DNA of 33,477 nt from Tissierellaceae bacterium (GTDB lineage: Bacteria; Bacillota; Clostridia; Tissierellales; Tissierellaceae), in the NCBI GenBank assembly GCA_029257065.1, contig JARIDA010000031.1, forward strand, positions 1 to 33,477, given 5' to 3'. Positions 12,392-33,477 of the stretch are shown piece by piece; within the stretch, counting starts at the first letter, position 1, and each line of letters starts with the position of its first letter. The notes beneath the pieces were generated by a model. That model saw only the letters and a list, made by a program, of their open reading frames with translations, did not search any database and had not been told where the DNA came from. The translations under genes were made by a program, and so were the position numbers.

Positions 12392-12420
12392 AAAAACCAC
12401 CCATATGGGTGGTTTATTTT
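12392..12420. terminator. Intrinsic terminator between convergent mtnA and cheR
   Basis: aaaccaccc (12394-12402)-atat-gggtggttt (12407-12415) with flanking A/T tracts. Confidence 0.85.
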
Positions 12421-13202
12421 ATTTTCTTATAAAAGAAAGTTTTAAATGTTTCAAAATTATATCTTTCAGGCATTATAATTTGTTCAGTACTACCTACAAA
12501 AAATATACCATCTTTTTTAAGTGATTTGTTAAATTTTTCATATAAGTTTTCTTTTGCCTCATCTGTAAAATAAATCATAACATTTCTACAAGTTATAAGG
12601 TCGAAATTAGAAGGAAATCTATCTTTCAAAAGATCTATTTTTTCAAATTTAACTCTATTTTTAATTTCATCAGATATTTTAAAAAGACCACCTTCTTCTT
12701 TGAAATAATTACTTTTAAATTCTCTTGGAAGGTTTGCTAAAGCTTTTTCAGTATAAATTCCTTTTTTAGCTTTTTCAATAGCTCCAAGATCAATATCAGT
12801 AGCTAATACTTCTATATCTCTTAAATTATAAAATTTTGACAAAAGCATAACCAATGAATAAGGTTCTTCCCCTGTAGAACAAGCAGAACTCCAAATTTTT
12901 AATTTATTAGAATTGTATTTTTGTAGCTCTGGTATTATTGTTTTTTCTAACTCATCCCATTGCGATTTATTTCTATAAAATTCCGATACATTTATAGTTA
13001 AATAATTTATAAAATCTTTTAACAATTCTTTATCTTTTTCCAATGCTGTGAAATAATCATCAAAATCTTTATATTTATTTCTTTTCTTTAAAGAAGTTAT
13101 TCTTCTCTTCATTTGAGCTTCTTTATAGTAATCTAAATTGATTCCTATTAATCTATCAATTTTTCTTTTAAAAGATTCATACTTTGCCATAAAAACCTCC
13201 AT
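12414..13202 (-). CDS. cheR: Chemotaxis protein methyltransferase CheR
   Basis: NVSEFYRNKSQWDELE, WSSACSTGEEPYSLVMLL, CRNVMIYF; classic CheR motifs. Confidence 0.93.
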   Translation of the reverse strand: MEVFMAKYESFKRKIDRLIGINLDYYKEAQMKRRITSLKKRNKYKDFDDYFTALEKDKELLKDFINYLTINVSEFYRNKSQWDELEKTIIPELQKYNSNKLKIWSSACSTGEEPYSLVMLLSKFYNLRDIEVLATDIDLGAIEKAKKGIYTEKALANLPREFKSNYFKEEGGLFKISDEIKNRVKFEKIDLLKDRFPSNFDLITCRNVMIYFTDEAKENLYEKFNKSLKKDGIFFVGSTEQIIMPERYNFETFKTFFYKKIK

Positions 13203-13258: not shown

Positions 13259-15229
13259 TTATTCTATTATATCTCCTATAGTTACATCTTCTTCTTCTGT
13301 TTCTATTTCTTCTGATTTTACATCAGTTTTTTCATCTTCTTCTGATTTAGTACTTAAACTAATTTTCTGTTCTTCTTTATCTATATTTATTACTCTAACT
13401 TCTACATCATCACCTATTGCAAAAACATCTGCAGGTTTATCTATATGATCACTAGAAATTTGAGAAACATGAAGCAATCCATCTACTCCTTGTCCTAATC
13501 TAACGAAAGCACCGAAGTCTAATAAATTAACTATCTTACCAGGAACTGTATCCCCTTCTTCAACTTCTCTTACAAATACATCCCAAGGTTTTTCCATAGT
13601 TTGCTTAAGACCTAAAGAAATTCTATTTCTTTCTTTGTCTAAACCTAGAATTTGTACTTCTACTTCCTCATCAGCCTTAACTATTTCTGAAGGATGTTTA
13701 ACTCTATGCCAAGCTAAGTCAGATATATGAATTAAACCATCTAATCCACCTAAGTCAACAAAAGCACCAAAGTTTGTAAGTCTTCTAACAACACCTTTTA
13801 TTAATTGACCTTCTTCTAATTCTTTCCATAATTCTACTCTTTTTTCTTCTAATTCTTCTTTTTCAACTTCTTTTCTTGATAATATTATTCTTCTTTTAGT
13901 TTTATCAAAATCAATTATTTCTGATTCTAATTCTTTTCCCTTATAAGCTTTTAAATCACTTACAAAATTTACAGAAACATGAGATGCTGGCATGAAAGCA
14001 TTTAAACCTTCTACTAATACAGCTAGACCACCTTTTACGTCTCTTATTACTGAAGCTACTACTCTTTCTTTATTTTCATATTTTTCTTCTAATTCTTCCC
14101 AACTTTTTGACTCTTCCACTCTCTTAGCTGAAAGAACTACATTACCATCACCATCGTCCATTCTCATTACATAAACTTGAATTTCTTCACCTGGCTCAAA
14201 AAGATCTCTTGGTTCTACATCAGGATCATTTGATAATTCATCTCTATCTATTATTCCATCTGACGTGTAGTTTATATTAACCATAACCTCTGTATCGGTT
14301 ACAAATAAAACCTCACCTTTTAGGACATCTCCCCTGTGTATTTTTGTAAAGGAGCTATCGATAGCCTCCATCATTTCATTTGTCATTTCCATATCATTTT
14401 CACTATTCATAACTTGAATAACCTCCTTAATTATACAGTCAGGCGTTGAAGCACCTGCTGTTACACCTATTGTATTAAATTTTGCAATTTCTTGCAAAGG
14501 TAAATCTTTAATTGTTTCTATATGATAAACATTTTTACAATGTTTTTCACTAACTTCTTTTAATTTAGTAGTATTTGAGCTATGAAAACCTCCAATTACT
14601 ACCATAGCATCAACTTCAATAGATAATTGTTCACATGCTTTTTGCCTATTCGTTGTTGCACTACAAATTGTATTTAGAGTTTTTACCTCTTTGTTATTTG
14701 CTTTAATAATATCTACAATTTTTAAAAAATGATCTTCTTTATTTGTTGTTTGAGATACTATTAATACTTTATTTAATTTTATAATCTTATGAGCATCTTC
14801 TATATTATTTATAATAATAGCTTTATTCTTACACCATCCATTAATTCCAATAACTTCTGGATGATTAGAATCTCCAATTATAATTATATTATATCCCTTT
14901 TCCATAAATAATTGTACATTAGAATGAATTTTTTTTACATAGGGACAAGTTGTATCTATTATTTCTATATTTTTATTCTTAAAATCATTAATAACTTCTT
15001 CTCCTACACCATGGGATCTTATAATTATACGACCTGATTCAATCTCCGATATATTTTTAATAGGTATAATTCCTTTTTTAGTCAAAGCTTCTACTGCTTG
15101 ACTATTGTGTATTAATGGTCCATATGAATATAGGTTTTTATTAGATTGATTGACTTCTAAAACAGCTAGTTCTATAGCTCTTTTAACGCCAAAACAAAAA
15201 CCAGAATGTTCTGCTTGTATTATTCTCAT
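13259..15229 (-). CDS. ispH-rpsA: Fused 4-hydroxy-3-methylbut-2-enyl diphosphate reductase (IspH) and ribosomal protein S1-like (four S1 domains)
   Basis: IspH cysteines SGFCFGVKRA, DTTCPYV, TICSATT in residues 1 to about 280; then S1 repeats (e.g. GVVRRLTNFGAFVDLGGLDGLIHISDL; GKIVNLLDFGAFVRLGQGVDGLLHVSQI). Confidence 0.96.
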   Translation of the reverse strand: MRIIQAEHSGFCFGVKRAIELAVLEVNQSNKNLYSYGPLIHNSQAVEALTKKGIIPIKNISEIESGRIIIRSHGVGEEVINDFKNKNIEIIDTTCPYVKKIHSNVQLFMEKGYNIIIIGDSNHPEVIGINGWCKNKAIIINNIEDAHKIIKLNKVLIVSQTTNKEDHFLKIVDIIKANNKEVKTLNTICSATTNRQKACEQLSIEVDAMVVIGGFHSSNTTKLKEVSEKHCKNVYHIETIKDLPLQEIAKFNTIGVTAGASTPDCIIKEVIQVMNSENDMEMTNEMMEAIDSSFTKIHRGDVLKGEVLFVTDTEVMVNINYTSDGIIDRDELSNDPDVEPRDLFEPGEEIQVYVMRMDDGDGNVVLSAKRVEESKSWEELEEKYENKERVVASVIRDVKGGLAVLVEGLNAFMPASHVSVNFVSDLKAYKGKELESEIIDFDKTKRRIILSRKEVEKEELEEKRVELWKELEEGQLIKGVVRRLTNFGAFVDLGGLDGLIHISDLAWHRVKHPSEIVKADEEVEVQILGLDKERNRISLGLKQTMEKPWDVFVREVEEGDTVPGKIVNLLDFGAFVRLGQGVDGLLHVSQISSDHIDKPADVFAIGDDVEVRVINIDKEEQKISLSTKSEEDEKTDVKSEEIETEEEDVTIGDIIE

Positions 15230-29711: not shown

Positions 29712-31406
29712 TCAACCCTTTAAACTTTCAGACATCTGAATCATTTCTAATGCATGTTTAAGTGTAGTGTCTGTTAGGTCTACCCCACCAATTAATCGGG
29801 CTAATTCTTCGACTCTTTCCTCAAGATTTAACTTGTGTATATAAGAGCCAGTCTTATTATCAGATACCTCTTTACCTATTACATAATGACTATCAGCTAA
29901 GGCTGTAATCTGCGGTAAGTGAGATATACAAATTACTTGATGATTCTGTGAAATATTATAAATTTTTTCTCCTACTATTTGAGCTGTTCTACCTGAAATA
30001 CCCGTATCAATTTCATCAAATATCATGGTTTGAATATTATCATATTTTGCCAAAATACTTTTAAAAGCTAACATTATTCTAGACATTTCTCCTCCTGATG
30101 CAATCCTAGAAAGAGGTTTCAAACTTTCACCTATATTAGGTGAGATTAAGAATTCTATTCTATCCAATCCGTTTAATACATAATTATCTAATCTTTTAAA
30201 GTCAACTTTAAATTTAATTTCATCCATATTTAATAATTCTAACTCATTTTGAATTAAAACTTCTAATTTTTTTGCAATATCTTTTCTCATACTTGTTAAA
30301 TTTTCACCCTTGGAATTTAATATAGATTCTATTTTTAAAATCCTAGACTTAACTTCTTTTATTTCCTTTTCTTGATTTAATAGAACTTCTAATCTCTTTT
30401 TTGCATTGGATTCATAATCCAATATTTCTTCTATTGTATTTCCATATTTGTTTTTCAATCTATTTATAAAATCTAGTCGTTTTTCTAATTCCATAAGTTG
30501 TTCATTACTAAAATTTATATCTTCTATGAAATTTATACATTCTAAGTTTAAATCCTTTAATTCATATTGTAAACTTTTGAATCTTTTAAATATTTTATAA
30601 ATATCTTTATCTAAATCATTAATTTTCTCTAATTCAATAGAATGACTATTTATTTTATCAATTATTCCAATTGACTCAAAGTCATTGCCATTAAAAGAAT
30701 TAAATACATTTGAAAATACTTCTATTATATTATTAACGCTCTTCATTTTTTTATATTCATTTTCAATATTTGCATCTATTGCAATATCCAAATTAGCTTC
30801 CTGTATCTCATCAATTTGAAAGTTAAGCATATCAATTTCTCTATCTCTTTCCATAAGATTCAAGGAGATACTATCTAAATGTTGTTTTTCTTTTTCTAAT
30901 AATTCATAATTATATTTAAAAGCTTCTTTAACTTCCCTAAAAGATTTATCTCCAAAAGAATCTAAAAGTATTCTATGATTACCTATATTTAATAATGATT
31001 GGTTTTGATGTTGTCCAAAAATATCAACTAAATTCCTTGTTATATTGTTTAGCATTGATAAATTTACATTTTTACCATTAATCTTCGAAAGACTTGGTCC
31101 TGTTTTAGAAATTTCCTTGCTTATTATTAATAATCTATCAGAATCTACTATAATTCCATATTCTTCCAACAAGCAATCTAAATCATTAATATTATCTAAA
31201 AAAAATACAGCTTCTAATAATGATTTTTCTTCACCAGTTCTTATGAAGTCTTTATTAGATCTAGAACCTAGTAAGATACCTAATGCATCTATTAATATGG
31301 ATTTACCTGTTCCAGTTTCTCCTGTTATTATATTAAGTCCTTTAGTAAATTTAACATTTAAATCTTCTATTATTGCAAAATTACTAATATTAAGTTCTAG
31401 TAACAT
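29712..31406 (-). CDS. recN: DNA repair protein RecN
   Basis: GETGTGKSILIDALGILLGSR, ASGGEMSRIMLAFK, FDEIDTGISGRTAQIVGEK. Confidence 0.97.
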   Translation of the reverse strand: MLLELNISNFAIIEDLNVKFTKGLNIITGETGTGKSILIDALGILLGSRSNKDFIRTGEEKSLLEAVFFLDNINDLDCLLEEYGIIVDSDRLLIISKEISKTGPSLSKINGKNVNLSMLNNITRNLVDIFGQHQNQSLLNIGNHRILLDSFGDKSFREVKEAFKYNYELLEKEKQHLDSISLNLMERDREIDMLNFQIDEIQEANLDIAIDANIENEYKKMKSVNNIIEVFSNVFNSFNGNDFESIGIIDKINSHSIELEKINDLDKDIYKIFKRFKSLQYELKDLNLECINFIEDINFSNEQLMELEKRLDFINRLKNKYGNTIEEILDYESNAKKRLEVLLNQEKEIKEVKSRILKIESILNSKGENLTSMRKDIAKKLEVLIQNELELLNMDEIKFKVDFKRLDNYVLNGLDRIEFLISPNIGESLKPLSRIASGGEMSRIMLAFKSILAKYDNIQTMIFDEIDTGISGRTAQIVGEKIYNISQNHQVICISHLPQITALADSHYVIGKEVSDNKTGSYIHKLNLEERVEELARLIGGVDLTDTTLKHALEMIQMSESLKG

Positions 31407-31425: not shown

Positions 31426-32232
31426 TTATTTTAAACTCCTATGAGATTTTTCTATAACATCTAATATATCTCTATCTTTTAATTTCTCTTGATTTATATC
31501 CTCTTTATTCTTAAAGTATAATAAAAATTCTATATTACCTTTTGCACCTGTTACGGGAGAGAAATCCAGTTTTTTTACATAGAAATCTATAGAGTCAATA
31601 AACTCTAATATTTCTTTTAAAACTTTAAAGTGAATATTTTTATCATTTATAATTCCACCTTCACCAACCTCTGATTTTCTAGCTTCAAATTGTGGTTTGA
31701 CCAATGCTACTATCTCACCTGATTCCTTTAATAGTTCTTTTAATACTGGTAATACAAGTTTCAATGAAATAAAAGATACGTCTATTGTTATAAAATCCAG
31801 GTCTTCTTTTATATCCGATCTTTTAACCTCCCTAATATTAGTTCTCTCCATAACAACAACTCTTTTGTCATTTCTTAACTGCCAAGCTAACTGACCATAT
31901 CCCACATCAACAGCATATACTTTTTTAGCACCCTCTCTTAACATGCAGTCTGTAAAACCTCCTGTCGAAGATCCTACATCCATTGTTACTTTATCCTCTA
32001 ATCTTATATTGAAAAGTTTTATGGCTTTCTCTAATTTTAGCCCTCCCCTTGATACAAAATCATGTTTACCTTTTTTAATATATAAATCAGAGTTATTATC
32101 TATATTATGTCCTGGTTTATCTACTTTTTCATCATCAGCATAAAATAATCCTTGCATTATTAAACTTTGAGCCTCTTTTATATTTTTTACCATTCCACTT
32201 TCCAAAAGTACTTTATCCGCTCTCTCTTTCAT
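31426..32232 (-). CDS. tlyA: TlyA family RNA methyltransferase/hemolysin
   Basis: S4-like N-terminus, DVGSSTGGFTDCMLREGAKKVYAVDVGYGQLAWQLR, VKPQFEA. Confidence 0.96.
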   Translation of the reverse strand: MKERADKVLLESGMVKNIKEAQSLIMQGLFYADDEKVDKPGHNIDNNSDLYIKKGKHDFVSRGGLKLEKAIKLFNIRLEDKVTMDVGSSTGGFTDCMLREGAKKVYAVDVGYGQLAWQLRNDKRVVVMERTNIREVKRSDIKEDLDFITIDVSFISLKLVLPVLKELLKESGEIVALVKPQFEARKSEVGEGGIINDKNIHFKVLKEILEFIDSIDFYVKKLDFSPVTGAKGNIEFLLYFKNKEDINQEKLKDRDILDVIEKSHRSLK

Positions 32233-32859
32233 CTATTTCTCCTTATTATTTTTTCTCATCTTTTTATCTTTTTTTTCTTTTATATCTTTCTTGTCCTTTA
32301 ATAAATTTATACCAAATTTTTCATCTAAAAAATATAATATTTTAGACACAAAGAATATTATTTCTTCATTATAATTCATTCCTAGGTCTTTTCCAAAAGC
32401 TTTTCCCCCAACTGTTAATGAAGCTACTAATGAGGTTAACAATATTGACAATACAACACCATTTAAGTCTTTATATATCGTTATTACATTAAACATTATA
32501 TTTGTACTTATAGCCCCAGAAATTATTCCACTTATATCTCCTATAACATCATTACAAAAGTTTGATACCTGTGATGCATTTCTTACCAATTTTATTGCAT
32601 GTCTGGCTTCTTTGATTCTATTTGAAGCCATTGAGTGAAAAACTTGTTCTCCACCAGTTGCCACAGCAATACCTATGACATCAAAAACTATACCTATTAA
32701 AACAATCGATAATAAAACTATAAATGACATAAATACATTTAAATTTTCCACTAGTCTCTCACTCACTACAGTAAAAACTATAGCCATTAAAAAAGTCCAA
32801 ATACTTATTAAAACAATCCATTTTATATTATATTTCTCTTTAAATGATTTTTTTTTCAT
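32233..32859 (-). CDS. oapA: OLE-associated protein A (OapA)-like membrane protein
   Basis: About four TM segments, DVIGIAVATGGEQVFHSMASNRIKEARHAIKLVRNASQVSNFCNDVIGDISGIISG signature, Lys-rich C-tail; directly downstream of the OLE-like RNA, directly upstream of tlyA. RBS aaggagga. Confidence 0.85.
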   Translation of the reverse strand: MKKKSFKEKYNIKWIVLISIWTFLMAIVFTVVSERLVENLNVFMSFIVLLSIVLIGIVFDVIGIAVATGGEQVFHSMASNRIKEARHAIKLVRNASQVSNFCNDVIGDISGIISGAISTNIMFNVITIYKDLNGVVLSILLTSLVASLTVGGKAFGKDLGMNYNEEIIFFVSKILYFLDEKFGINLLKDKKDIKEKKDKKMRKNNKEK

Positions 32860-32875
32860 TTAATCCTCCTTCAAA

Positions 32876-32915
32876 AATAAATAGCTGATAGCCCTAGGGC
32901 TATCAGCTATTTATT
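32876..32915 (-). terminator. Perfect 40-nt palindrome plus U tract between the OLE-like RNA and oapA
   Basis: aataaatagctgatagccct/agggctatcagctatttatt, perfect; followed on the minus strand by TTTG then the oapA RBS. Confidence 0.8.
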
Positions 32916-33477
32916 AAAGTGGTAATAATAAGTGTAAATCTTACGGCTTTGGTCCAGTAGGATTTCCCTAACAAAAACTATTTGTCGCCATAATAGCGGT
33001 TTCCCTTTAATTTCATTACTATCCTGTCACCACAGATAGAACTGGATTACCACTTAGGCCGCACTGTAATCCACAAATTATTTCTCTTTGAACAGTCTAG
33101 GAGTTTTCCTCAACAGCCATACTATCTCCTTAGCCTCTTTTGCAAAATAGGTTTCGGCAACAAAACCCAGAAGATTTTGGGCCCTGCTAAATCCTCTGGA
33201 TGACCTGCCATCTGCCTGATTTCACTCAAGGCAGGCTACTCTGTTACTTTGTAACCTAGTACGTAACAGGTGTATCACATCTATTTTCTAGATATGTCTC
33301 CACGAAGGTAGGGTCATCGCCCGCATGCCTTTGCAGATCGCCCCATCCCCCTTACTCCCCACATAGACCCCCGACTGGGCGTCGCAAGCCTATACAAGAA
33401 ACTTCATCGATATGCCCTTCAACGGATTTTTAGCCCCGTCTTCCAGAGTAGTTGTACTGACTAGAATACTGCACCAC
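32876..33477 (-). ncRNA. ole: OLE (ornate large extremophilic) RNA, 5' end at or beyond window edge
   Basis: About 600 nt without ORF in the track, markedly G-richer on the minus strand than the AT-rich surroundings, many complementary helices (e.g. 33046-33055/32917-32926; 33041-33046/32953-32958; 33241-33247/33263-33269; 33212-33219/33226-33234); synteny ole-oapA-tlyA-recN as described for OLE loci. Confidence 0.85.

Follow-up and report, generated by a model that had tools for sequence, protein, structure and literature searches.

OLE RNAs are among the largest structured bacterial RNAs that still await a biochemical role. The class has thousands of catalogued members, and a published catalogue lists 2,822 hits in Bacillota (PMC11332333). 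Work on the OLE RNA of Halalkalibacterium halodurans has described a dimeric RNA that is located at the membrane and has a role under stress. The co-occurrence of OLE with its protein partner OapA has been stated for Bacillota generally, and the partners OapB and OapC are not universal across the class. The H. halodurans ole gene has been reported to have a promoter of its own (PMC9723947), and its RNA has been reported to be processed from a polycistronic transcript (PMC12265935, PMC11332333). Two variant forms, variant 1 (TANB77) and variant 2 (RF39), were described by Fernando and Breaker in 2024 (PMC11332333); in these, features of P7-P9 and P13 are shortened or missing.

Here we describe an ole-oapA locus at the right-hand end of a 33,477-nt contig (the window, i.e., the whole stretch of DNA that was analysed) from a bacterium with a small, Tissierellaceae-type genome. 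Its RNA is a full-length OLE and a fresh example of an already known class, from a lineage in which OLE is expected. It resembles the OLE RNAs of H. halodurans and Clostridium acetobutylicum (RF01071) in length, conserved segments, secondary structure, k-turn sequence and GGCC kissing loop, and its locus resembles theirs in the adjacent oapA, a promoter-like site of its own and the ispA/tlyA/recN neighbourhood. It differs from them in that its P5 is short. The RNA belongs to the same class as variants 1 and 2 but, unlike them, has the corresponding arms, most of which were supported. The membership of the OLE family, the conserved structure, the adjacent and co-inherited OapA and the CNNM-like predicted fold of that protein are established here. 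What is new, the constant hairpin at the 3' end of ole and a scar left by the loss of the locus in a relative, is modest in both cases; neither the hairpin nor the absence of ole-oapA as one unit from relatives turned up in the OLE papers searched.

Identification of the OLE RNA

A cmscan search with Rfam 15 matched the ole region on the minus strand to the OLE family RF01071 with 450.4 bits (E = 2.9e-129), far above the family cut-off of 50 bits, over model positions 17-616 of 616 (Table 1). This match is the decisive evidence for the identity of the RNA, and it bore out the first-pass annotation, which had proposed an OLE-class RNA at 32876-33477. Those limits were essentially right, as the body of the RNA ended near 32903-32915 and the remainder to 32876 was the 3' hairpin. 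Fourteen control genomes gave no OLE match.

The other properties that had drawn attention to the region were also confirmed. The ole stretch contained no ORF of at least 80 aa on either strand, the G+C content of the RNA was 0.44 vs 0.21-0.38 elsewhere in the window (500-bp steps), and the dense self-complementarity claimed for the minus strand was reflected in a fold of -174.3 kcal/mol, vs -158.6 +/- 6.2 kcal/mol for shuffled sequences (z = -2.5; 1 of 100 shuffles folded as well). The genome was, as had been suggested, of a clostridial, Tissierellia-like bacterium, with relatives in Tissierella, Anaerosalibacter, Sporosalibacterium, Schnuerera, Gudongella and Tepidimicrobium, all Tissierellaceae-type genera.

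Table 1. Coordinates of the ole-oapA locus and its neighbours in the window.
Feature	Position	Strand	Basis or remark
ole, OLE noncoding RNA (RF01071)	32903..33477	-	cmscan; contig end removes the 5' 16 model positions
CGUGGAGAC in J4a/5 (joining region), 5' strand of the k-turn for which OapC binding is reported	33296..33304	-	invariant, 15/15 family OLEs
GGGCCC palindromic loop of the long P9 arm (GGCC kissing loop)	33179..33184	-	invariant, 15/15 family OLEs
3' hairpin, 18-bp stem, probable intrinsic terminator and OLE 3' end	32876..32915	-	fold; core conservation
GGAGG ribosome-binding site of oapA, straight after the U-tract	32865..32869	-	sequence
oapA, OLE-associated protein A, 208-aa membrane protein	32233..32859	-	identity to family OapAs; AlphaFold/Foldseek
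tlyA, TlyA family rRNA methyltransferase, usual ole neighbour	31426..32232	-	TIGR00478, 250 bits
recN, usual ole neighbour	29712..31406	-	TIGR00634, 507 bits

Missing 5' End and Putative Promoter

The window ends where its contig (C65) ends, leaving 575 nt of ole in the window and cutting only 16 positions of the OLE model. To recover the remainder, IspA from the nearest relative was used as a query against the same assembly, and this located contig C97. This contig overlapped window positions 33351-33477 by an exact 127 nt and carried OLE model positions 1-144 (L149:1-143), thereby supplying the missing 5' end and bearing out the earlier suggestion of a short 5' portion, possibly a few tens of nt, beyond the window. 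A contig break within the 5' region of ole with an exact 127-nt overlap is typical of graph-based assembly.

In the joined sequence, ispA was followed by a TTGAAT hexamer, a 17-nt spacer and a TATAAT box preceded by TG; the RNA begins 12 nt further on with GUGGUGCAGUAUUC. In all 15 OLE-bearing members of the family, a TATAAT-like box stood ~8-16 nt before the GUGGU start of the RNA, in most of them with a TTGA-type hexamer upstream. The box was likewise present at most of the named loci of other families. This arrangement suggests that a sigma-A-type promoter between ispA and ole would serve ole itself and give a discrete RNA of ~600 nt.

Conserved Structure of the RNA

An alignment of the 15 family OLEs had a mean column identity of 84% with long invariant runs. 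When the Rfam structure was applied to this alignment, 87.5% of cells paired vs 37-48% when the 3' partners were slid by 1-3 columns, a percentage that can be inflated because the structure was used as fitted to the window sequence. More weight is therefore given to two-sided changes, which were found in 55 pairs vs 35.3 +/- 3.1 in shuffles, with none of 500 shuffles reaching 55. Absence of covariation in homologs, which the first-pass annotation had named as grounds for abandoning its proposal, was thus not what we found. Two variable helices paired poorly in the alignment, probably a consequence of uncertain plain alignment in those regions.

Helix names were matched to the text of the published papers, not to their figures. 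The long P7-P9 arm and the 3' hairpins were present in ole. P5 and P6, which bear on the P5.1-P6.1 loop-loop dimer contact, were short and variable in this lineage. The location of the k-turn in OLE and the binding of OapC at it have been reported (PMC9723947, PMC12286853), and in the cryo-EM structure (PMC12286853) the palindromic loop makes the dimer contact called bridge B3, a kissing loop. Both sequences were retained here (Table 1) and, as judged by sequence, are predicted to form the k-turn for OapC and the palindromic dimer loop.

Two other readings of the region were considered. That a different large structured RNA (RNase P, a tmRNA or a group II intron) had been misread as OLE has nothing in its favour and a negligible probability: of 4227 Rfam families searched with cmscan, OLE alone matched the region, and ARAGORN found no tmRNA in the window, which together refute another family or a tmRNA. 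It is also very improbable that the RNA is a decayed, non-functional remnant of an OLE at a contig end. Such a reading would draw on the interruption of ole by the contig end and on its score, which at 446-450 bits was the lowest among the 15 family OLEs (446-509 bits). The absent end, however, was found on C97, 134 of the 143 model pairs covered by the window sequence were standard pairs, neither the k-turn, the GGCC loop nor the segments of high conservation had been lost, and the oapA reading frame was intact. Moreover, the relatives that have lost OLE lack the whole ole-oapA unit and do not carry degraded copies. The low score gives some justice to the earlier description of this OLE as divergent, but the term is slightly strong for a full-length RNA without the published P7-P9 truncations. 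Taken as a whole, the locus is almost certainly best explained as an intact ole-oapA locus, in which an RNA of ~600 nt would be made from its own promoter, have its 3' end at the hairpin and form a membrane particle with OapA.

OapA and Other Candidate Partners

The gene immediately downstream of ole, previously noted only as OapA-like, encodes an OapA orthologue that was 47-63% identical to its counterparts in the 14 other family genomes with OLE. The order ole-oapA-tlyA-recN was likewise upheld by the TlyA and RecN matches. OLE and OapA occurred together in 15 of the 28 family genomes and were both missing from the other 13; oapA adjoined OLE in every OLE-bearing genome (15/15) and was found in none of those without it (0/13). 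Among named Bacillota, OLE was just 5' of oapA at 19 of 20 OapA loci.

The AlphaFold model of OapA (pLDDT 87) had long helices at residues 12-38, 42-68, 95-128 and 134-162. The six best matches to this model in the PDB by Foldseek were all CNNM/CorC transmembrane proteins, with probabilities of 0.91-1.0 and weak E-values (best 0.0058). OapA is therefore predicted to be a small membrane protein with a CNNM-related fold of four transmembrane helices, subject to those weak E-values; this fits the published proposal of kinship between OapA and CNNM proteins. At the sequence level, OapA had no significant Pfam match (some relatives match CNNM weakly), a profile comparison with the CNNM protein of its own genome gave nothing significant, and there was no match among PDB sequences. 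The predicted fold of its transmembrane part is like that of the MpfA/CNNM Mg2+ exporters but, unlike these, OapA has no CBS and CorC domains. The genome keeps a single MpfA-like CNNM-CBS protein. As this protein family anticorrelates with OLE, its presence counts somewhat against an intact OLE system, but one copy is compatible with the 2024 survey (PMC11332333).

OapB, identified through PDB 7k9b, was found in 26 of 28 family genomes irrespective of OLE, and L7Ae/OapC-type proteins in 23 of 28. Neither the OapB nor the OapC gene was found in this assembly, which was likewise without ribosomal proteins S12 and L24. Since these ribosomal genes, from the same neighbourhoods, were also missing, the absence of OapB and OapC reads as an assembly gap and was not taken as a true lack of them in the organism.

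By analogy with H. halodurans, the OLE RNA would dimerise and would bind the CNNM-like membrane protein OapA. The resulting particle would sit in the cell membrane and help the cells to grow when stressed by cold, alcohol, Mg2+ or carbon source, a location and role taken from the literature.

The Hairpin at the 3' End of ole

The core of the 3' hairpin, GCUGAUAGC-CCUAGG-GCUAUCAGC, lies at 32884-32907 and runs into a U5 tract (32877-32873), which is followed by the oapA ribosome-binding site; the fold of the hairpin was -27.1 kcal/mol. A hairpin was present between ole and oapA in all 15 OLE-bearing family members, with a common stem and differing loops and with one base changed in G005 and G014-G016. 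The exact core occurred at most once per family genome: 12 genomes carried it, 11 of them beside ole, the remaining one being G022, which lacks OLE. In a class-wide search it was present in 7 of 292 genomes, beside ole in five (three of these, G049, G160 and G294, outside the family) and elsewhere in two (G193 and G250). With both searches pooled, the exact stem was found in 17 distinct genomes, beside ole in 14, once in each. The copies in G193 and G250 lay away from any OLE match, at L198:1500-1524 and L197:1500-1523.

Versions of the hairpin were also found 3' of ole in Natronincola, Alkaliphilus and Anaeromonas (with the arms swapped). The constant-stem hairpin is shared with related clostridial lineages, but it was absent from the ole-oapA junctions of the named Bacilli examined. 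It was also absent from Acetobacterium, which carries another hairpin. The 616-position Rfam OLE model does not contain it, and no mention of it was found in the OLE literature searched.

The hairpin looks like the intrinsic terminator of clostridial OLE. If so, the 3' end of ole would be set just before oapA, and oapA would be expressed by read-through past the hairpin; in contrast to H. halodurans, with its processed RNA, clostridial OLE would instead end at the hairpin. A consensus terminator scan missed the ole hairpin, probably due to the stem pairing into the U-tract.

Terminator stems require pairing, not a constant sequence. The fixed sequence of this stem is accordingly more than a terminator needs, and a role beyond termination is a possibility. 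We think it probable, nonetheless, that this is an ordinary terminator whose constant stem reflects common descent and not selection on sequence, as a U-tract accompanies most copies and two of the seven class-wide genomes carry the motif away from OLE. Against this stand the 9-bp stem itself, which was unchanged, or nearly so, over seven genera plus two or more other families as the loop and flanks varied, and the case of the nearest relative (G001), in which the stem is retained next to a poor U-tract. We offer more tentatively the alternative that the hairpin with the constant stem (GCUGAUAGC/GCUAUCAGC) adds a functional element to clostridial OLE RNAs, one in which the sequence, not pairing alone, is selected, e.g., to bind a partner protein or to control read-through into oapA. 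The hairpin is a concrete handle on the end of OLE and on the balance of RNA and OapA in clostridia.

Probable Loss of ole-oapA in Related Genomes

In all 13 family genomes lacking OLE, ispA was directly followed by tlyA, with a gap of 14-78 nt or, in G022, 369 nt, which indicates that ole and oapA are missing as one unit from one site. The ispA-tlyA gap of G022 retained the ole hairpin (L165:1380-1830), and this hairpin is the scar of the lost ole-oapA unit. Aside from it, a search for OLE or OapA remnants at the 13 loci gave nothing significant. The scar also favours loss over gain. In a tree of TlyA and IspA, the OLE-lacking genomes fell in ~4 groups among the OLE-bearing ones, consistent with about four separate losses of ole-oapA, a number that is approximate because some deep branches were poorly supported. 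The family is therefore a natural experiment, with 15 species that have ole-oapA and 13 cleanly without it at the same ispA/tlyA site, and comparing the OLE-plus and OLE-minus groups could hint at the role of the complex.

Other Features of the Window

Several observations were made outside the locus. Two adjacent ORFs of ~105 aa without a Pfam match lie on the plus strand at 2304-2962. A near-perfect inverted repeat just past lexA (1068-1151) is probably a two-way terminator and was the source of weak, spurious Rfam matches. A lone CheR-type methyltransferase gene (12414-13202) stands beside a gene at 13259-15229 that encodes IspH fused to ribosomal protein S1 (NF000907), a fusion known in clostridia.
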